A DNA stretch of 64,000 bases, taken from Candidatus Manganitrophus morganii (GTDB taxonomy: Bacteria; Nitrospirota; Nitrospiria; SBBL01; Manganitrophaceae). The stretch spans positions 2,790,001 through 2,854,000 of the forward strand of contig JAJHOH010000001.1 in NCBI GenBank assembly GCA_021651055.1, written 5' to 3'. Position numbers and translations under genes: made by a program. Within the stretch, counting starts at the first letter, position 1; each line of letters opens with the position of its first letter. The notes below the pieces were generated by a model. The model saw nothing but the letters and a program-made list of their open reading frames with translations. It did no database searches and was not told the DNA's origin. Below, piece after piece: positions 9,696 through 49,697 of this stretch.

Positions 9696-10934
9696 GTGAT
9701 TCAAACGGTGCCCGATGAGAATGCCCCGGAGGAAATCAAAGAAGAAAAGAAATCACCCCCGGTTTCCACCGGCGAGATCGCCCTCGGTATCTCCCTCCCC
9801 TTTCTCGTGATCGCCGCCTCCGTCTTTGTCGATGCCGTCTACGTCCGAAACCATCCCTGGCGCCAGGGATACATCGGCTTTGTTTCGTTGATCCTCTTTA
9901 ATCTGATCCTCCTCGTTTATGCCCTGGCCGTCTGTAAACGGCGGGGGATCTGGCCGCTCTTTCGTCCGATCTCCCCCGCGGCGGTCCTCTCGATGATTCC
10001 CTTCGCAATATTGATCGCCTTCGGCATCAACCTCCTGGTCGGGACGACCCACATGGCGATGGAGAAGATCTTGAACCAAAAGTTCGAGATGCCCGACTAT
10101 TCGGCGCTGGCGACCTTCGGGCCGAACAGCCTCCTCTCCGTCATCATGATCGTGATCGGCTTCACCGCCATTCCGATCTTGGAAGAGATCTACTTTCGGG
10201 GGTTTCTCTACAATGCCCTCAAGACCCGCCTTCCGCTCCTCTTTGCCGCCAATCTGCAGGCGATCCTCTTCGCGGCGGCCCATGGGGCCGGCTTCATGAT
10301 CGGGATTCTCTACTTCATCGCGGGGATGGCGCTGGCGGTGGTTTATGAAATGCGGAAGGAGCTGGTCTCGCCGATCTTGGTCCACGGCGCCATCAATGCG
10401 ATGGCGCTGATGCCGCTGCTCGCCCTGGCGCTTCAGAATTTTCACATGCCGGCCGCCACCTGGGAGGAGGCGGAGCGTCCGCCGGCATGGCTGGCGCCGG
10501 CGCCGCCGGCGTGGATCGATAAGAAAGAGAATGCGGCGGCGCAGCGGCAATACGCCATCGACACCTGGGGGAGCCAAGGGTCCAAAGCGTGGAAGAAAGA
10601 GACCGTCGCGCTGCAGGCGGTCTGCGTCTGGTTTCCCGAAGATCGCGAGGCGTGCGCCAAGGCGAAGAGCGGCGTGGTTGCGATCTACTCCACCTTTCTG
10701 AAAGACCACCGGCGGGCGGTCATCGAGGCCGACCGGCTGATCGCCGAATTTCCGAAGGAAGAAGAGGCGGTCGCCATCGCCTTGACGCGGCGGGGTTTCG
10801 CTTACCTGATGCTCCAGGATTTGGAGAAGAGCCGCGAATCGTTCGAAAAGGTGATCAACGAGTACAGCCAACACAGCACGCCGCTCGAAGAAGCCGCAAA
10901 GGGAATTCAGATATTGGAGAGGGTGGAGAGATAA
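9696..10934 (+). CDS. CPBP (Rce1-like) intramembrane protease with C-terminal TPR-like tail
   Basis: The gene encodes 412 residues from GTG 9696, with GGGAG upstream. The N-terminal 35 residues are charged and cytosolic. Residues about 30-250 hold several membrane helices with the glutamic-protease motifs: EEIYFRG near 163-169, HGAGF near 190, and HGAIN near 230. These fit the CPBP family of membrane endopeptidases. Residues 255-412 are soluble and contain two or three helix pairs resembling TPR repeats (RRGFAYLMLQDLEKSRESFE). A protease joined to a TPR-like tail is less usual; the tail may recruit substrates. The substrate is not known. Confidence 0.8.
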   Translation: MIQTVPDENAPEEIKEEKKSPPVSTGEIALGISLPFLVIAASVFVDAVYVRNHPWRQGYIGFVSLILFNLILLVYALAVCKRRGIWPLFRPISPAAVLSMIPFAILIAFGINLLVGTTHMAMEKILNQKFEMPDYSALATFGPNSLLSVIMIVIGFTAIPILEEIYFRGFLYNALKTRLPLLFAANLQAILFAAAHGAGFMIGILYFIAGMALAVVYEMRKELVSPILVHGAINAMALMPLLALALQNFHMPAATWEEAERPPAWLAPAPPAWIDKKENAAAQRQYAIDTWGSQGSKAWKKETVALQAVCVWFPEDREACAKAKSGVVAIYSTFLKDHRRAVIEADRLIAEFPKEEEAVAIALTRRGFAYLMLQDLEKSRESFEKVINEYSQHSTPLEEAAKGIQILERVER

Positions 10935-32861: not shown

Positions 32862-35657
32862 TTGAAACGGATCACCGGCCGAGAGAGCAGCGGCGCTTGT
32901 AGCCTTCCCAATTCCTCCCTTCATTTAATCAAGAAATTTTCTTGTTTTATCATTCTCGCGTCGCTTGTCTTTTTAGGTTTTGCCTTATTCTCACCCGATG
33001 CTCTCCAGGCGGCCGACACAGGTCTCCGAAGTCCGACGTCTAACCTGGCAGATACAGGTGGGGATGGCAACGGTTATCAGGGTAATTCGGCCAACGCCCA
33101 CACCGATGATACTTTAAACGCAGTAGACACCGACAGCGGATCAAGCACAGGCACCTCCTGCACGGGGATGGATAAAGACAAACACCGGTTCTATGACTAC
33201 GGCTTCAGCATCCCTGGTGGATCAACCGTCAACGGCATTGAAGTTCGGCTCGATGCGCGGGCCGATAGCACCTCTGGATCTCCGAGGATCTGTGTACAAC
33301 TCTCCTGGAATGGTGGGACGACTTGGACCACGGCGAAGACCAGTCCGAATCTGACGACCACACTCGCCACTTACACCCTGGGGAATGCCACCGACACCTG
33401 GGGTCGGACCTGGAATGTAAATGACTTCGGCAATGCGAACTTCCGAGTACGCCTGATCAATATCGCCAGCAATACCTCGCGCGACTTCACCCTCGATTGG
33501 GTGGCCGTACGGGTTCACTATGTGGTACCGGCCCCTCCGACGATTACTTCAACACCGGTGACGACCGGGAATGTCGGTCAGGCCTATTCCTATCAGGCGA
33601 CCGCGACGGGGACCACACCGATTACCTGGTCGTTGGTGAGTCCTCCTTCCGGGATGACGATCGGCTCGACGACGGGGTTGGTTACCTGGACCCCTGGTAA
33701 TGCAGGCAGCTTCCCTGTTACGGTCCGGGCAACAAACTCACTCGGCTCGGTGGATCAGTCTTACACCATTGTTGTGAGCACCCCGGCTGACACGGGTCTT
33801 CGAAGTCCGAATGCGAATGCGGCAGACACAGGTGGAGACGGCAATGGCTACCAGACCACGCCGACCAATGCCCACGCCGATGATACTGCAAACGCGGTGG
33901 ATACCGACAGCGGGACAAACACCGGTACCTCCTGCACCGACGCCGGTAAAGACAAACACCGGTTCTACAACTACGGCTTTGCGATTCCGAACGGGGCTGT
34001 GGTCAATGGGATCGAGGTTCGGCTCGATGCAAGGGCCGACAGCACCTCCGGCTCCCCGAGGATCTGCGTGCAGCTCTCCTGGGATAATGGGAACACCTGG
34101 ACCACGGCGAAGACCAGTTCGAACTTAACGACCACACTCGCCACCTACACCTTGGGGAATGCCACCGACACCTGGGGTCGGACCTGGAATGCGAATGACT
34201 TCACCAACCCCAACTTTCGAGTACGCCTGATCAATATCGCCAGCAATACCTCGCGCGACTTCACCCTCGATTGGGTGGCGGTGCGGGTTCATTATGCGAT
34301 CCCCCCACCCCCCCAAATCAGCAGTCTCTCGCCAGATATCGGTCCCGAGGGCACCAACGTAACAATCGCCGGATCGAGTTTTGGGACGAGCGCAGGCACC
34401 GTGACTTTTAACGGCATGGCGGCAACCGTGAGCGGCTGGAATAACACAACAATCACGGTGCAAGTCCCAGCCAGTGCTACAACAGGCCCGGTCGTCGTTA
34501 CAACGACGGGAGGGGTTGCCAGCAATGGCGTGACTTTTACTGTGACCCCGAAGATCAACAGCCTTTCGCCCGCCTCCGGAGTGATCGGCACATCCATCAC
34601 AATCAACGGAACAAATTTTGGGGCGACTCAGGGAACCAGTATAGTGACCTTTAACGGTCTTGCCGCAACCCCAAGCAGTTGGTCTGATACCAGTATCGGT
34701 GCTTCCGTCCCGGTGGGAGCAAGCACTGGGGCTGTGATCGTTGCGGTTGAAGGGAATCCCAGTAGCGGGGTCAACTTTACCGTCTTACCTAAGATCGATA
34801 CACTCGCCCCCACTTCTGGGCCGGTGGGAACATCGGTCACTCTCACCGGATCTGGTTTTGGCGCAACCCAGGGATCCAGCATTGTCAGATTTAATGGTGT
34901 GATCGCTTCGGTCAGCAGTTGGTCGGCGGAAAGTATTGTCACGTCTGTCCCCCCCGGTGCTGGCACGGGACCGGTTGTGGTGACGGTGGGAGGAAATGCC
35001 AGCACTGGAATGACCTTTACAGTTACGGTGACTCCTCAGATTAATAATCTCTCTCCGACATTGGGTCGAGCAGGTACCTTGGTCACAATCGGTGGAACCA
35101 GTTTTGGGGCAACCCAAGGGACCAGTACCGTCACCTTCAATGGAACAGCAGCAACGCCAAGCAGTTGGAGCGAGACGAGCCTTGTGGTTCCTGTTCCGGA
35201 AGGGGCAACGACAGGCCCTGTCCTTGTGACTGTCGGCGGCCTTTCCAGCAATGGGGTGGTCTTTATAACAAGTATCAGACAGACATACATCTATGATGAT
35301 GCGGGCAGACTGGCGGGGGTCATCGATCCGGTAGGGGAAACGGCCATCTATTCTTATGACGCAGCCGGAAACCTTCTGGGCATCTCGCGTCAGAGTTCTT
35401 CGACGGTTTCCATCATTGCAATCAATCCGAAGAAAGGGCCCGTGGGTGCTTCCGTTACGATCTCAGGAACCGCGTTCTCAACGGTTTCGAGTGAGAACAT
35501 CGTAACCTTCAATGGCACTGCGGCCACGGTTCTCTCTTCCTCTGCAACGGAAATCGTGACGACCGTGCCTTCAGGGGCGACCTCAGGACCCATTGCAGTG
35601 ACAAATGGAAACGGAAATGCGACAAGCAGTACTTCCTTTACGGTGACGACACCATGA
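32862..35657 (+). CDS. Large secreted surface protein with duplicated sheet domain and IPT/TIG repeats
   Basis: The gene encodes 931 residues from TTG 32862, with GAGGG upstream. Residues about 30-50 form a signal peptide. Two near-identical units (about 51-222 and 309-480) start TGLRSP and contain RLDARADSTSGSPRICVQLS; a He_PIG-like Ig segment lies between them. Four or five IPT/TIG units follow (SLSPASGVIGTSITI-type, from about 483). Around residue 808-845 a single YD repeat pair (YIYDDAGRLAG, IYSYDAAGNLLGI) interrupts the IPT array. This is a cell-surface or secreted adhesin-like protein. It overlaps the RHS gene by 4 bases. Confidence 0.8.
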   Translation: MKRITGRESSGACSLPNSSLHLIKKFSCFIILASLVFLGFALFSPDALQAADTGLRSPTSNLADTGGDGNGYQGNSANAHTDDTLNAVDTDSGSSTGTSCTGMDKDKHRFYDYGFSIPGGSTVNGIEVRLDARADSTSGSPRICVQLSWNGGTTWTTAKTSPNLTTTLATYTLGNATDTWGRTWNVNDFGNANFRVRLINIASNTSRDFTLDWVAVRVHYVVPAPPTITSTPVTTGNVGQAYSYQATATGTTPITWSLVSPPSGMTIGSTTGLVTWTPGNAGSFPVTVRATNSLGSVDQSYTIVVSTPADTGLRSPNANAADTGGDGNGYQTTPTNAHADDTANAVDTDSGTNTGTSCTDAGKDKHRFYNYGFAIPNGAVVNGIEVRLDARADSTSGSPRICVQLSWDNGNTWTTAKTSSNLTTTLATYTLGNATDTWGRTWNANDFTNPNFRVRLINIASNTSRDFTLDWVAVRVHYAIPPPPQISSLSPDIGPEGTNVTIAGSSFGTSAGTVTFNGMAATVSGWNNTTITVQVPASATTGPVVVTTTGGVASNGVTFTVTPKINSLSPASGVIGTSITINGTNFGATQGTSIVTFNGLAATPSSWSDTSIGASVPVGASTGAVIVAVEGNPSSGVNFTVLPKIDTLAPTSGPVGTSVTLTGSGFGATQGSSIVRFNGVIASVSSWSAESIVTSVPPGAGTGPVVVTVGGNASTGMTFTVTVTPQINNLSPTLGRAGTLVTIGGTSFGATQGTSTVTFNGTAATPSSWSETSLVVPVPEGATTGPVLVTVGGLSSNGVVFITSIRQTYIYDDAGRLAGVIDPVGETAIYSYDAAGNLLGISRQSSSTVSIIAINPKKGPVGASVTISGTAFSTVSSENIVTFNGTAATVLSSSATEIVTTVPSGATSGPIAVTNGNGNATSSTSFTVTTP

Positions 35658-35686
35658 ATGTGTCATCTATAGAAACAGAGGATTCA

Positions 35687-38600
35687 ATGTCTACTGTTCG
35701 GGTCTTGGCACGCATTCTGATTTTTAAATTAATGCTTGTTGCATTTTTAATTGCCGCCAAACCTGCTTCGGCCGGCACGGCGGTGTGGACCACTCCATGT
35801 TATCAGCAGAACTGGGACGGCCCAATCGGTATTTATTGTGGAACTCTGGAGCAGGCTGCAAGAGCATACCTGGATGATACCGAACTTTATCTGGCCTCTA
35901 TAGGACGACCTCTTACCTTTCAATTGCTTGAAGTATATGCCGGTCAGCACAATTTAGATATTCACTTTCTAAGAAGTGATGGATTTAACAATTGGACTCA
36001 AGTTGCGGCATATTGTCCTCCTGGCTACAATAATTTTCAGCCTTATTTCTGTCAACCGGACGGTGTCGATAAAAAGAAGAATGATTGTAATACCGAAGCG
36101 GTCGTCGGCAATCCATGTAGTGCGGGAAAAAGAAACAAAAAGGCCACTGAAATTGATTATAGCGGCCCTGGGCTGATCTACAAGCGTACTTACAACAGCT
36201 TCTCAATGGATGAAGCTCGTCTGGGGCACCTATCAGGATCAAATTGGCGCGGAGCCTATGACTATTCCCTCACCCTCAACAGCCAATGGAATACCCAGCT
36301 AGCCACGGCCATCTTAAAGCGCCCTGATGGAACAGTCATTAACTTTGCCCTTACGAACGGTCAATACGTTGCCGATTCGGACATCACCAATCGATTGGAG
36401 CAAACCCCAACTGGATGGAGCCACACTCTCAGAGACGGCACAATTGAGACCTATGATACTGCCGGGCATCTTCTTTCAATTACCAAGCTCAATGGCCAGA
36501 TTGAAACTCTGAGTTATGACACCTCCGGTAAACTCGCCTCCGTAACCGGCCCCTTCGGCCACACGCTTCAATTCGTCTATGGGACCAACAATAAGATTGC
36601 CAGCCTCATCGACCCCGCAAATGCAGCCATCACCTATACCTACGATAGCAAGAACAATCTGGAGCGGGTCTCCTATCCGGATGGAACGGCGAAAATCTAC
36701 CACTATGAGAACACGACCTACCCATTTCACCTCACCGGCATCTCCTATAATGATGGGCAGGGGGGAGTCACTCGGTTCTCGACCTATGAATACGATACCT
36801 CAGGTAGTCCGATCCAAACCGAACATGCCGCTACCGACAACGGCGCCCCTCAGGAGAGCTACACCCTGGTCTATGACTCACCGACACAGGCGACCGTTAC
36901 CGATCCTGCGGGCAACGTGGAGGTCATGATCTTTCAGCTTAATCTTGGGGTCAATAACCTGATCAGCAAGACAAATTTAGCCGATGGCAAAACCCTCACG
37001 CAGGTTTTCGATGATAATAATCGGCTGACCAGCCGCACCGATGAGGAGGGGCGTACCACTACCTATACCTACAACGCTGCACATCAGAAGACCTCCATGA
37101 CGGAGGCGGCAGGAACCCCTCAGGCACGCATCACATCCTATCAATATCTTTCGGCCGATCTTGATCTGCTCACTTTGATCCAAAGCCCTAGCGTCCATGC
37201 CGGCTCCCTGAAAGAAACGGAGACCACTTATGATCCCGCCCGAAACCCACTTACCATCACGGAGCGCGGGTACACCCCCACGGGAACGGCTATCTCGAAA
37301 ACGGTCGCGTTCACTTATAACGGTTTTGGCCAGGTCTTGACCATCGATGGACCACGCACCGATGTCGCCGATATCACCACGCTGGAGTATTATGACTGCA
37401 CCAGTGGGAGTGCTTGCGGCCAGTTGGAAAGCACGACCAATGCCCTGGGTCATCAGACACATTTCGATACCTACGACTCTCAGGGTCGCGTCACACAGAT
37501 GACCGATCACAATGGTTTAGTGACTTCTTATACATACGACTTCTTCGGCCGCATTCTCACGATGACCCAAACCCCACCGACCGGAACCAGTCGCAATACA
37601 CAGTATGTCTATGATCAGAATGGAAAGATCACGAGCGCGACCCTGCCGGACGGCATCGTCTTGACTTACACTTACGACGCGGCCCAGTATCTTCGGAGCA
37701 TTACCGATAATTTGGGCAACAAGGTTGAATATCGCTATGATCTGAAAGGAAACCGCACAAGCGAATTGACCAAAGATCCAAACGGGACGCTGGTACGCAG
37801 TATCGAAACAGCCTATGATGTTCGAAACAGTGTTGCCTCAATCAATGCCGGCGGGAGCTTCACGCAACTGGTTTATGACGCCGTCGGCAACCTGGTTCGT
37901 ACGACCGACCCGAACGACAACCCCAACACCGTTCACACCTACGACGCTCTCAATCGCCTGATTCAGACGGTCGACGCCCTCTCCGGCGCGGCACAGTATG
38001 GATATGATTCGAACAATCGGCGCAAGGAGGTGACCCCTCCGGGTACGACCGCCACGCAATATACTTACGACGATCTCGGCCATCTGCTCCAGGAAGTCAG
38101 CCCCGAACGGGGGACGATCAACTTGACCTATGATCATGCGGGGAATGTCAAAACGCGGACCGATGCCCGCGGGATTACCGCCACCTATACTTACGATGCG
38201 CTGAACCGACCCCTGACTGTCGATTACCCCGACACCGAATCGGATGTCACATTCACCTACGATTCCGCTCCAGGCTGTACCTTCGGAATGGGGCGGCTCT
38301 GCGCAACCATCGACGCAAGCGGCACCACAACTTTCGCTTACGATGCGTTTGGAAATCTAATTCAACAAGCCCACACCGAACTGGGGGTCACCTATACGGT
38401 CCAGTACACCTATGATGCCGGAAATCGGATTCAGTCGATCACCTACCCGGATGGGCAGACGGTCAGCTATTCCCGGAACGCAGTCGGTCAAATCAGCGTC
38501 ATGACGTTACCGATCAACGGAGTCACCACCTCCCTGCTCAACAATATACTCTATCGTGCAGACGGCCTGATTACCGAGTGGACGTTTGGTAACGGCCTGG

Positions 38601-39799
38601 TCGAAGCCCGCAATTATGATTTGCAAGGACGGTTGATCACTCAGACGCTCGGAACCGTGGAGAGCCGAAGCTATACCCACGATCCGAACGGCAATGTGTT
38701 AACACGCATCTCCTCCGTTGGGAACTCCACCTACACGTATGATCCGCTCAACCGTCTGACAGGAGATAGTCTCCTCCCCGAGAGTACCAGCTTCACTTAT
38801 GACGCGAACGGTAACCGTCTTGCCCTGCAGGCCTCCTTGGATGCGATCGTTGGCCTCGATCTGGGAGCAAGAACGTTTACCTATAATGCCACCGGCCAAC
38901 TGGCTCAGGTTTATGAAAATGGGAATCTCATCGCCACCTACGTTTACAACGCGCAGGCCCAACGCACCCGCAAGATCACGGCTACCGAGACGATCCTCTA
39001 TCATTACGACCGCTCCGGCTTGCTATTGAGCGAAACCACCGCCACGGGAAGCGCGATTCGGAAGTATGTCTGGTCAGGGGAGATCCCTGTCGCTCAGATC
39101 GATCAAAGTACAACCGAGGTAGTGCGCTATTTGCATACGGATCATTTAAACACGCCCAGACTCGCGACCGATGCTTCCAGTGCCGCTATTTGGCGGTGGG
39201 AGGCCGATGCCTTCGGAGTGGCCCAACCGAACTCGGCCATTACGATTAATCTAAGATTCCCCGGGCAATACTTTGACCAAGAGACAGGGCTGCATTATAA
39301 TTGGAATCGATATTACGACCCGAAGATAGGGAGATACATCACGAGTGATCCGGTCGGGTTGGCGGGTGGACTGAACACGTATGTATATGCCAATAATAAC
39401 CCAATCATATACGCTGATCCTTCAGGATTACTCGGCAATGGAACGGTCCCTGGAGGGGCTCGCCCCGACTACAGCTCATGTAGTTACTACGACCGAAAGT
39501 GCAGCGAGACAGGATGTGGATATTACTGCGAAACCGCTCCGAGACTTTGCCGAAATGCCGAATTGATACCTTCATTTTGGGGAATAAATAGTAACGAGTT
39601 TAATTGTATCCGTCGCTGTTTGGTACGCGAGGATAAGAAGGTGCACGAGCAACGGGATAAGTGCAAAAATAAAGACTGCCTCAAGGATAAGCAGATCGAT
39701 GACTATCACATAGCTTGTTTTACGGAATGCGGCGTATCACCGAATCGATATCCTGGTGTCAACCCTTGGTGGCTCCCAAATCAAAATCCACCTAAATGA
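35687..39799 (+). CDS. RHS-repeat protein with cysteine-rich C-terminal tip
   Basis: The gene encodes about 1,370 residues; I prefer ATG 35687 because AGAGGA lies 4-5 bases upstream and the signal peptide LIFKLMLVAFLIAAK starts there. An ATG at 35654 overlaps the previous stop (ATGA) and is possible. After a short domain, many YD repeats (YTYDALNRPL, YQYLS-type) make the RHS barrel. The core ends with HLNTPRLATDA, GQYFDQETGLHYNWNRYYDP and GRYITSDPVGLAGGLNTYVY. The about 120-residue tip has 11 cysteines. RHS proteins carry variable toxin tips released by this core. Confidence 0.9.
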   Translation: MSTVRVLARILIFKLMLVAFLIAAKPASAGTAVWTTPCYQQNWDGPIGIYCGTLEQAARAYLDDTELYLASIGRPLTFQLLEVYAGQHNLDIHFLRSDGFNNWTQVAAYCPPGYNNFQPYFCQPDGVDKKKNDCNTEAVVGNPCSAGKRNKKATEIDYSGPGLIYKRTYNSFSMDEARLGHLSGSNWRGAYDYSLTLNSQWNTQLATAILKRPDGTVINFALTNGQYVADSDITNRLEQTPTGWSHTLRDGTIETYDTAGHLLSITKLNGQIETLSYDTSGKLASVTGPFGHTLQFVYGTNNKIASLIDPANAAITYTYDSKNNLERVSYPDGTAKIYHYENTTYPFHLTGISYNDGQGGVTRFSTYEYDTSGSPIQTEHAATDNGAPQESYTLVYDSPTQATVTDPAGNVEVMIFQLNLGVNNLISKTNLADGKTLTQVFDDNNRLTSRTDEEGRTTTYTYNAAHQKTSMTEAAGTPQARITSYQYLSADLDLLTLIQSPSVHAGSLKETETTYDPARNPLTITERGYTPTGTAISKTVAFTYNGFGQVLTIDGPRTDVADITTLEYYDCTSGSACGQLESTTNALGHQTHFDTYDSQGRVTQMTDHNGLVTSYTYDFFGRILTMTQTPPTGTSRNTQYVYDQNGKITSATLPDGIVLTYTYDAAQYLRSITDNLGNKVEYRYDLKGNRTSELTKDPNGTLVRSIETAYDVRNSVASINAGGSFTQLVYDAVGNLVRTTDPNDNPNTVHTYDALNRLIQTVDALSGAAQYGYDSNNRRKEVTPPGTTATQYTYDDLGHLLQEVSPERGTINLTYDHAGNVKTRTDARGITATYTYDALNRPLTVDYPDTESDVTFTYDSAPGCTFGMGRLCATIDASGTTTFAYDAFGNLIQQAHTELGVTYTVQYTYDAGNRIQSITYPDGQTVSYSRNAVGQISVMTLPINGVTTSLLNNILYRADGLITEWTFGNGLVEARNYDLQGRLITQTLGTVESRSYTHDPNGNVLTRISSVGNSTYTYDPLNRLTGDSLLPESTSFTYDANGNRLALQASLDAIVGLDLGARTFTYNATGQLAQVYENGNLIATYVYNAQAQRTRKITATETILYHYDRSGLLLSETTATGSAIRKYVWSGEIPVAQIDQSTTEVVRYLHTDHLNTPRLATDASSAAIWRWEADAFGVAQPNSAITINLRFPGQYFDQETGLHYNWNRYYDPKIGRYITSDPVGLAGGLNTYVYANNNPIIYADPSGLLGNGTVPGGARPDYSSCSYYDRKCSETGCGYYCETAPRLCRNAELIPSFWGINSNEFNCIRRCLVREDKKVHEQRDKCKNKDCLKDKQIDDYHIACFTECGVSPNRYPGVNPWWLPNQNPPK

Positions 39800-45327: not shown

Positions 45328-45588
45328 CTTTAGCAGCCGGCGGCCCTCCCCCATCCATATGAACCAACTTGCATACTCTCCGCAATGTTCATCAGCGTGA
45401 AGAAAGTTGCACGCGCCTCTTTCGAGGCAAATCGTTCCGATCGAATGATTCAAAGCATCCTCCAGATTTGAATCTCTATTCATTACCGGTCGTTACCAGC
45501 GATTCTCCATTCCTGATCTAGAGGCACCCCTCTTGCATCGCTTCTTATATCGGTGCGGTTGCGTGGATCCTCGATGGGAGCAAAACAG

Positions 45589-45735
45589 ATGAAGGGGATG
45601 ATCATCCTTCTGATGGTTATCCTGGCTCCGGATATTGTCACGGCGGCCGCCGTGACTTCCGGACAATCGGGTCCCTGGTCTTCACCGGCGACATGGGTCG
45701 GCGGCGTCGTTCCGGGCGACGGGGATGAAGTGTGA
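45589..45735 (+). pseudogene. N-terminal, frameshifted part of the beta-helix protein
   Basis: This frame encodes 48 residues from ATG 45589, with GGGAG 8 bases upstream. It has a signal peptide (MIILLMVILAPDIVTAA) then PWSSPATWVGGVVPGDGDEV, and a TGA follows at once. The second unit of the neighbouring gene reads ATITSAGNGSWSSASTWVGG and PGDGDEVIIADGHTVRIDR without interruption. A shift of one base after GTG at 45730 joins this part to the frame at 45732 exactly in register. It is therefore the missing signal-peptide region of the large protein. Whether the shift is real, programmed or a sequencing error cannot be told. Confidence 0.7.
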
Positions 45736-48700
45736 TTGCCGACGGCCATGCCGTCGAGATTGATCGGGACATCGGGAGCGAGGGGCTCGGATTGAAAATG
45801 CTCCGCGTCGGAACCCACAACGGCTCGGCGGCGCGGCTCTTCTTTGACGGGCGCAGCCGTTCCCAAGCGGTGACCCTTCGATTCGCGAGCCGCGGAAAAG
45901 ACCGGGGAGTCGATGCCTTCGGCATTCACTTTTGGGGGAGCATTCAACTGGAGGGAACCCTTGAGCATCCTCTGGTGATCGAGCCGGTGGTCCAGGACGG
46001 GAGTGCGGTGACGTTCATTCAAAAAGACCCAAACAGCAGCCGCGTCGATCTGATCCTTCGCGACGTGATCCTTCGGCGGGCCGGCGATGAGCAAAGCGCC
46101 GGGATCGACGTCCGGGGGGCAAGCCGCTCCGGGGAGCGGGTGATCATCGAGGGAAATCGATTCGAGGGATCGGGTTCGATTCAACTCGCCGGCGCCGACG
46201 GCGGCGGCGCGACGATCTCCCTGAGCCGGAATGAGGCGGTCGATCATCGGGGATCGTTCGTCCAATTTCGGGCCGCGCGAAATCTGCTGATCGATCGGAA
46301 TCGGATCACCCTGGTTGCCTTCCCCGCCGGGGCGCCGGGACAGGCGGTCATCGACGGCATCCAGGGAGACGGGGTCGGAAATGGGATTCGGATCGAGGGG
46401 AACACGATCCTCAGTACGATCGATGCTGAAAGCGCGACCCACCCGCGCCGCTACGCGATCTGGCTCAATGGTTTCCCGGACTCTGTCGTGGCCGGCAACC
46501 GGGTCGCCGCCCAGGGGGTCTCCTATGGGTTTGAAGAGGGGGTCACTATTTTGGGCGGGGCCGGGAGGGGAGCGAACATCCGGATCGATCGAAACAACAT
46601 TATCGGCACAGTTCACGGCGTCGGCATTCATACCGTCCGGACCGACAACAGCGGCATCGAAGTGACCCGGAACCGGATCTTCGACAACCGCAACGAGCAT
46701 ATCTTCATCTCGGAGGGGCATCAGATCCGGATCGTCAACAACCTCCTCTACGGAACGCTTCATAGCGGCCAGGCCGGCATCCTCCTCTACAACACCGATC
46801 AGGTCGAGATCGTCCACAACACGCTCAATGGGACCCCTTCGGTCTCCACCGCGGGAATCGCCATCGGAAATCAGGGAATCGGCGTTTCGCACGGCGTCGT
46901 CGTCAAGAACAACATCCTGACCCGTTGGAACAAAGCGATCCAGAACCGGCCGGCCGGGAACACCTTCCGGGAGGTGGCCTACAACCTCTTTTTCGAGAAT
47001 GTGAAAAATTATGATCTCGAGCCGATCGACGGGGCGGGAGCCGGCGATGTTCTCGGCGATCCGAAGTATGTCGACCGCTCTTCTAGCGACTATCATCTCC
47101 AAACCGGCTCGGCGGCGATCGACCGGGCCGATCCGGCCGGCGCGCCGGCGGAGGATATCAACGGGCAGGCGCGCCCGGCCGGCGCCGGATTCGACATCGG
47201 CGCCGACGAGTACCGGGAGCCGGCATCTGCCGATTTGGCGGCGACGGTCGGCGCCACCCCCGAGCGGGTGATCGTCGGAGGGCGGCTGACCTATGTCGTC
47301 ACCGTGACGAATCATGGCCCCGCCATGGCGAATGAAGTGGCGGCGACCGTCACCCTCCCTTCGGAGATCGCGCTCCTTTCCATTCAGACCGATCGAGGAA
47401 GCTGCGATCCGGGGGGGATCTGCTCTCTTGGGGAACTGGAGAGCGCCGAACAAGCGGTCATCACCGTCGAGACGACGGCCGTCGCGGCCGGCTTCCTCAA
47501 CGCGACGGCTCGGGTCGCCGGACGGGAAACCGATCCCGACGCCGGCAACAACACCGCTTCGGCGGAAGCGGCGGCGGTTCCGGGCGACGGCGGCGGGGGA
47601 GGACCGCCCATTCCTTCCCCTTCTCCCCCTTCTCCTCCTCCTTCCGACTCGACCGGTTCGCCCCGATACGGATTCGGTTGCGGGGCGGTTCAGCCGGCTT
47701 CCGGCAACCGGGGTTTTCGCCGATCCGATCTGGGCGATCTCCTTCTCCTTGCATGGCCGCTGTTCTTCCTTCTTTTCAGAAGATTGAAAAGGTTGTTCTC
47801 TCTGCTCCTCCGGAATGCGGTATGGGTCGGAGGCCTTCTCCTGATTCTCCTTCCGCTCGAAGCGGGAGGGGCGACGATCACCTCGGCTGGTAACGGTTCC
47901 TGGTCGTCCGCATCGACGTGGGTGGGAGGCCGTGTGCCGGGGGACGGCGATGAGGTGATCATCGCCGACGGGCACACCGTCCGGATCGACCGGAACGTCG
48001 GCACGAGCGCTCAGGGATTGAGGATGCTCCGGGTCGGCACCCGCAACGGATCGACCGCGGTGTTGAAGTATGACGGCGCCGCGGCGGCGCGGGGGTACAC
48101 GATCGTCTTCGGAAGCACCGGGAAGGTGGAGGGCCAGGACGCGTTCGGGATTCGATTTTTCGGAACGGTCGATCTGCAAGGATCGGCGGCGAAGCCGCTG
48201 GTTTTGGAGCCGAGATTCAAAGACGGCCGGGCAATCACCTTTATCCGCAAGGAGGGGGCGAGCACCGAGGTCGATCTGACGCTGCGCGGTCTCACCTTCC
48301 GATTTTTAGGGGATGGGGAGCGCGCCGGGATCGATGCCTCAAATGGGGCGCGGATCGCCATCAGCGACAACACGTTCGAGCAGTCGGGTTTCATCCAACT
48401 GGCCGGCGCGAATGGGACGGCCGGAGCGGTTTTGGTGAGCGGAAACACGGCGACCGGACAGAAGGGGTCGTTTGTGCAGTTCCGCGCCGCCCGCGGGATC
48501 GACATTCTCCAAAATCAGGTCACGATCGCCTCTTTTCCGGCCGGCGCGCCGGGCCAGGCGATGATCGACAGCATCGAAGGGGATGAGATCGGGACCGATA
48601 TCCTGATCGAGGGGAACACCCTCATCAGCACGATCGATGCCGAGAACCCCACGCGGCGCCTCTTCGGGATCTGGTTGTCCGGGGTGACCGACTCCATCAT

Positions 48701-49697
48701 CCGTGGGAATCGGATCTCGGCCCAAGGGGTCGCCTATGGATATGAAGAGGGGATCTCGATTCTCGGAGAGGGAAACAATGCAAGGGATAATCGCGTAGAG
48801 GGAAACATCATTTCAAATACGATCCATGGGATCGGCATCCATACCGGCCGGTCGGGCAATCCGGGGATCATCCTTACCCGGAATGAGATTTTCAACAACC
48901 GGAACGAGCATATTTTTATCTCCGACGGTTATCAGATCGAAATCGTCAACAACATCATGTATGGACCGCTTCATTCGGGCCAGGCGGGGATTCTCCTCTA
49001 CAACACCGATCAGGCGAAGGTGGTGAACAATACCCTGGATGGAACGCCGGAGGTCTCCACCGCCGGGATCGCCATCGGCAACGCGGGGATCGCGACCTCT
49101 TTTAATGTGGTTATCAAAAACAATATTTTGACCCGGTGGAACAAGGCGATTCAGAACAGAAACAGCGGCAACAGCTTCAGCGAGGTCGGCTACAATCTTT
49201 TCTTCGAGAATGTCAACGATATCGACGACCTGGCTTCCAACGCGGGCTCCCAAATCCCGAGCGATCGAACCGGCGATCTCTTCACCTCGCCGGGATATGT
49301 CGATGCCGCATCGCGAAAATATCACCTCCTGGCCGGATCGTCGGCGATCGATCGGGCCGCCGCCCCGAACGCGCCGGAGGTCGATTTCGACGGGCAGGCC
49401 CGGCCTTTCGGAGAGGGCATCGATATCGGCGCCGACGAAGCCTCTTCCGATGCGCCGATCCCCCCGTCTTCCTGTTCGGGATCGGGGTGCGGCGGGGAAG
49501 ATGGAAGCGGCAACCCGACCGCCTCTTCCGAGGGGGAAAATTCGGGGGGATTCGGATGCGGGGCCATTCAGTCCCGCGCTCCGAGAAAAACGTTCGATCG
49601 ATCCCATCTGGGTGACCTGCTTCTCCTTCTCGTCCCGTTCTTTTACTTTCTTTTCATGAGAAGCGCGGCTCATCCTGTCAGACGGAGGGGTACATAA
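45732..49697 (+). CDS. Giant protein of two fused right-handed beta-helix units
   Basis: The open frame encodes 1,321 residues from a GTG that overlaps the stop before it (GTGA). It holds two full-length homologous right-handed beta-helix units (about 1-520 and 735-1265). Each has LRMLRVGT or LKMLRVGT, SGSIQLAG or SGFIQLAG, IEGNT, EHIFISEGHQIRIVNN, HSGQAGILLYNTDQ and NNILTRWNKAIQNR. A CARDB/DUF11-like section (about 495-610) lies in the first. Each unit ends with FGCGA-x-Q, a membrane stretch and arginines, a sorting-tail pattern. A signal-peptide-like stretch sits between. Parallel beta-helices often bind or cleave polysaccharide; no active-site residues were identified. Confidence 0.8.
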   Translation: MIADGHAVEIDRDIGSEGLGLKMLRVGTHNGSAARLFFDGRSRSQAVTLRFASRGKDRGVDAFGIHFWGSIQLEGTLEHPLVIEPVVQDGSAVTFIQKDPNSSRVDLILRDVILRRAGDEQSAGIDVRGASRSGERVIIEGNRFEGSGSIQLAGADGGGATISLSRNEAVDHRGSFVQFRAARNLLIDRNRITLVAFPAGAPGQAVIDGIQGDGVGNGIRIEGNTILSTIDAESATHPRRYAIWLNGFPDSVVAGNRVAAQGVSYGFEEGVTILGGAGRGANIRIDRNNIIGTVHGVGIHTVRTDNSGIEVTRNRIFDNRNEHIFISEGHQIRIVNNLLYGTLHSGQAGILLYNTDQVEIVHNTLNGTPSVSTAGIAIGNQGIGVSHGVVVKNNILTRWNKAIQNRPAGNTFREVAYNLFFENVKNYDLEPIDGAGAGDVLGDPKYVDRSSSDYHLQTGSAAIDRADPAGAPAEDINGQARPAGAGFDIGADEYREPASADLAATVGATPERVIVGGRLTYVVTVTNHGPAMANEVAATVTLPSEIALLSIQTDRGSCDPGGICSLGELESAEQAVITVETTAVAAGFLNATARVAGRETDPDAGNNTASAEAAAVPGDGGGGGPPIPSPSPPSPPPSDSTGSPRYGFGCGAVQPASGNRGFRRSDLGDLLLLAWPLFFLLFRRLKRLFSLLLRNAVWVGGLLLILLPLEAGGATITSAGNGSWSSASTWVGGRVPGDGDEVIIADGHTVRIDRNVGTSAQGLRMLRVGTRNGSTAVLKYDGAAAARGYTIVFGSTGKVEGQDAFGIRFFGTVDLQGSAAKPLVLEPRFKDGRAITFIRKEGASTEVDLTLRGLTFRFLGDGERAGIDASNGARIAISDNTFEQSGFIQLAGANGTAGAVLVSGNTATGQKGSFVQFRAARGIDILQNQVTIASFPAGAPGQAMIDSIEGDEIGTDILIEGNTLISTIDAENPTRRLFGIWLSGVTDSIIRGNRISAQGVAYGYEEGISILGEGNNARDNRVEGNIISNTIHGIGIHTGRSGNPGIILTRNEIFNNRNEHIFISDGYQIEIVNNIMYGPLHSGQAGILLYNTDQAKVVNNTLDGTPEVSTAGIAIGNAGIATSFNVVIKNNILTRWNKAIQNRNSGNSFSEVGYNLFFENVNDIDDLASNAGSQIPSDRTGDLFTSPGYVDAASRKYHLLAGSSAIDRAAAPNAPEVDFDGQARPFGEGIDIGADEASSDAPIPPSSCSGSGCGGEDGSGNPTASSEGENSGGFGCGAIQSRAPRKTFDRSHLGDLLLLLVPFFYFLFMRSAAHPVRRRGT

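Follow-up and report, generated by a model that had tools for sequence, protein, structure and literature searches.

In Myxococcus, a C-terminal sorting tail with a cysteine motif (CTERM) has been shown to be cut by a protease of the CPBP family (PMC11980579). The same work describes MXAN_5598, a protein of Myxococcus xanthus with an internal MYXO-CTERM, for which the authors suggest an origin by gene fusion followed by processing at that point, and its authors say that tags of this type are functional within proteins (PMC11980579). A precedent for an internal sorting tail is, with MXAN_5598, already published. The Manganitrophus protein analysed here resembles it in having a Cys-containing tripartite sorting tail inside a longer chain, but the C-terminal half of MXAN_5598 forms a barrel in the outer membrane and has OmpA domains, whereas in the Manganitrophus protein this half is paralogous to the first and brings a second copy of the tail. 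The likeness extends to the MYXO-CTERM, JDVT-CTERM and Synerg-CTERM families, which also occur on exported proteins and combine a Cys motif, a hydrophobic segment and a basic end; unlike them, the Manganitrophus tail has no NCBIfam match, and a like tail occurs in a bacterial class where no CPBP protease was found. A different kind of parallel is FbcH, the cytochrome b/c1 polyprotein of Bradyrhizobium, in which signal peptidase cleaves behind a signal within the chain. In both cases a membrane segment is followed by an internal signal-like segment in front of an exported domain, although the proteins are unrelated and the cut in Manganitrophus is predicted from sequence. A literature search for bacterial polyproteins with internal tails or internal signals returned nothing of use.

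The window, that is, the whole stretch of 64,000 nucleotides under analysis, covers positions 2790001-2854000 of a single 4.29 Mb contig. Its source genome belongs to the “Ca. Manganitrophus” lineage, its relative among the named genomes being “Candidatus Manganitrophus” sp. GAC4 (G004; CP114561), the sole relative found by our genome-contig scan. An open reading frame on the forward strand (45735-49697) runs without any break up to its stop codon (49695-49697) and, as a reading made from the sequence alone had proposed, joins the end of one protein to the start of another, leaving a sorting-like tail inside. Unit 1 (45735-47669) consists of a G8-like start, a right-handed beta-helix, a choice-of-anchor Q domain, a DUF11 domain (PF01345, about 47232-47567) and a Pro/Ser-rich linker. 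The internal tail GFGCGAVQPASGNRGFRRSDLGDLLLLAWPLFFLLFRR (47670-47783) carries a GFGCG motif, a spacer, a hydrophobic stretch and arginines, and is followed by LKRLFSLLLRNAVWVGGLLLILLPLEAGG (47784-47870), which holds a basic loop and a second signal-peptide-like segment, whose small-residue end LEAGGA lies directly before mature unit 2 (from ATITS). Unit 2 (47871-49538) comprises a beta-helix, a choice-of-anchor Q domain and a low-complexity linker, and the frame closes (49539-49697) with a second copy of the internal tail, GFGCGAIQ...RSHLGDLLLLLVPFFYFLFMR, which includes a membrane helix (residues 578-599 of the unit 2 model) and an Arg-rich end before the stop.

The two units are paralogues with 57% identity, and both match Pfam Beta_helix (PF13229, 83.8 bits over five stretches) and NCBIfam NF041518. 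They share these domains with the right-handed beta-helix and choice-of-anchor Q surface proteins, but the present protein strings two whole units together in a single chain, each unit having export and tail segments of its own. The predicted structure of unit 2, of moderate confidence (mean pLDDT 61), shows a beta-solenoid core, a disordered linker and a terminal helix. The solved folds closest to it, for the most part enzymes with a parallel beta-helix and tailspikes of phages, have low TM-scores, so no activity was assigned, and a PDB search by sequence gave no match. The immediate gene neighbours encode an FG-GAP protein, an OmpW-like barrel and a formyltransferase, and the neighbouring genes are conserved in the relative G005. 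Elsewhere in the window, a TIG/Ig-domain protein is followed by a 1381-aa RHS-repeat protein (32862-39799); neither G002 nor G004 aligns at length with the region of about 32.6-40.1 kb, whose flanks are joined in both, and the region may be an insertion.

The notion of two full-length fused units holds for their paralogy, but unit 1 is not full length in the window, where some 53 residues at its start lie in a different forward frame, at 45574-45735; they comprise the signal peptide region (MGAKQMKGMIILLMVILAPDIVTAAA...GDGDEV, then TGA). The cause is a deletion of one base at 45732/45733, within GATGAAGTGTGATTGCC (45730-45740), which cuts unit 1 from a signal peptide that is intact and in frame in the four relatives G002, G003, G004 and G005. 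Because of this deletion, the listed GTG start at 45732 is purely mechanical. The missing base is either a true lesion or an assembly or sequence error. It could mark the window copy as a decaying pseudogene, a possible if rather unlikely reading that would be compatible with our main interpretation for the relatives: the split from the signal peptide speaks for it, while the other 1320 codons are open and conserved and the loss of a lone base, seen in a single assembly, may be a sequence error. Compared with G002 and G004, the window's other conserved genes are for the most part intact, so the defect looks isolated.

The fusion itself is shared across the genus. The two-unit chain is encoded in one frame in all four relatives with a readable junction, with 1390 aa in G004 (GAC4), 1397 in G002, 1606 in G005 and over 1110 in G003, whose copy is cut by the contig end; G001 was left out of this count, its contig beginning within unit 2. 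The internal tail, the basic loop and the second signal-like segment are common to the four. Such a junction, kept in frame in four relatives, is not due to chance, and the two-unit architecture is a real, old and conserved design in the genus. The sequence-only reading had suggested the loss of a stop codon between two tandem genes as the origin of the continuous frame, and a search for relatives keeping both genes apart, which it had recommended, found none at the fusion locus in any relative examined. Unfused paralogues of one unit, ending in the same tail, do occur in G001 and G003 at a different locus (L029, 4719-6710; L030, 534-2417), where the downstream proteins contain Ig-like-looking repeats. 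In the phylogenetic tree, unit 1 copies cluster together (90/92), unit 2 copies do so as well (100/99), and the unfused singles stand apart as a third group. Since the copies of each unit form separate groups, the fusion is older than the sampled species; tree and shared frame fit one event of duplication and fusion that came before the divergence of the Manganitrophus species sampled. A stop loss recent and limited to the window genome, or a misassembly of the junction, is hardly credible on this evidence: the frame-breaking base error or mutation elsewhere in the window copy does indicate that gene or assembly is imperfect, but the junction is open and free of frameshifts in four other genomes, at synonymous divergences of up to about 1.4, and every readable relative encodes the same continuous protein, the outcome which the sequence-only reading itself had named as refuting its proposal.

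The internal tail is under purifying selection, with dN/dS values of 0.13-0.23 in well-diverged pairs, as are both units (about 0.2-0.3), and its alignment retains G-F-G-C, G-D-L-L and a proline. The linker and second signal segment show 0.36-0.49 in informative pairs; linker values above 0.8 come from two very close pairs and rest on 29 codons with almost no changes. Signal peptides usually evolve more loosely. Separate translation of both units from one frame, through internal starts, would find some footing in the TTG codons at the junction of the window genome (G000), G002 and G004. However, no in-frame ATG, GTG or TTG occurs at a shared place before unit 2 across the species compared, and in G005 none is found from the internal tail motif to mature unit 2, so that in G005 at least unit 2 has to be read through from unit 1. 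We regard this explanation as very improbable, and internal restart was rejected for the lack of a conserved start codon.

How such a chain might be arranged and processed can be proposed from charge and hydropathy, which make the two internal membrane segments of the sequence-only reading plausible; the second of them can also be taken for a cleavable signal peptide. The predicted orientation is that of a hairpin, with the tail helix running out-to-in, the basic loop inside and the signal segment in-to-out. The hydrophobic stretch of the tail is short (about 13-15 residues) and exceeds the hydropathy cut in some species only, and the cysteine lies about 18 residues upstream of it. In our favoured interpretation, which we hold to be probable, an ancestral tandem pair of beta-helix genes would have become a single gene before the Manganitrophus species split and been maintained as one chain, a precursor exported as two domains with a membrane hairpin between them. 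The N-terminal signal peptide would export unit 1; the internal GFGCG tail would stop the transfer, leaving the Arg-rich loop on the cytoplasmic side; and export would restart at the second hydrophobic segment with unit 2, placing both beta-helix domains outside, with unit 2 anchored by the terminal tail. The hairpin would probably be cleaved behind its second hydrophobic segment by signal peptidase I, and a second cut may occur at the Cys motif by some sorting enzyme, in which case the gene would encode a two-protein precursor. We infer the topology, the cleavage and a lipid anchoring at the cysteine from these features.

Small residues (AGGA, AGAA or SGAA) occupy the expected signal peptidase positions before ATITS in all species, and they would fit a cut by signal peptidase I. 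An uncut double beta-helix surface protein, held by the internal hairpin and the terminal helix, has the merit that a hairpin without cleavage is the simplest account of two hydrophobic segments and a basic loop, and the fusion is conserved in all readable relatives. We nonetheless find it unlikely, since these peptidase-like residues are retained in the second segment directly before mature unit 2, and the Cys motif is retained in an internal tail that is no longer terminal.

With regard to the enzyme acting on the tail in a cleaved precursor, the tail has the three parts of known sorting signals (cysteine, hydrophobic helix and basic cytoplasmic end), as seen in the alignment, the hydropathy profile and the unit 2 model. 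Membership in the named CTERM families was rejected, as the NCBIfam CTERM models matched neither eight tails (E up to 10) nor the full protein. The Pro-Glu-Pro motif that precedes the helix in the PEP-CTERM/exosortase system is absent, the motif being GFGCG, though the genus has exosortases. Rhomboid genes, which may or may not include a rhombosortase, are found in most genomes, and the tails have no NCBIfam GlyGly-CTERM match; the presence of exosortases or rhomboids does not discriminate. Given the immediate neighbours named above, a dedicated enzyme adjoining the gene was rejected, and no processing enzyme could be linked to the tail. CPBP proteins do occur in the genus, and of five that were scanned, four in relatives and one in the window's genome, none reached an Mrt cut-off. 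The window encodes an Rce1-like CPBP protease (9696-10934) that is extended at length at its C-terminus and falls below all Mrt cut-offs; it has this length in three of the six genus genomes (G000, G002 and G004).

Within the genus, strong tail matches are restricted to the beta-helix family, and a tail search through a Nitrospirota sample of 198 genomes added one further genome (E 1.2e-4 per genome). That genome belongs to another class of Nitrospirota, and genomes near it share its GxGCGT(V/I) tail, which they carry on similar proteins of an exported family unrelated to the beta-helix one. At four loci (L081, L083, L084 and L086), tail and helix sit on an exported protein of about 265 aa, which in L081 adjoins a CxxCH-rich, multihaem cytochrome-like protein. 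Ten genomes from this class, half of them carrying the tail and one with a completeness rating of 100%, yielded no CPBP protease, which argues against a myxosortase-type enzyme and makes a CPBP myxosortase an unlikely candidate. If both tails are one signal, a CPBP protease is probably not what processes it; the tails of the two classes could also be convergent. A bolder proposal, put forward tentatively, is a natural surface polyprotein: a single gene would yield a pair of anchored proteins of the beta-helix type, both equipped with an export signal and a Cys tail and separated by a cut at an unnamed GxGCG signal through a non-CPBP enzyme.

Should the chain be cut as proposed, it would offer a clean example of a surface polyprotein in bacteria, with an internal tail that would test whether sorting tails function away from the C-terminus. 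The surface proteins of this manganese-oxidizing lineage have hardly been studied, and the GxGCG tail, present on two unrelated protein families of Nitrospirota, is a candidate for a new sorting signal there.
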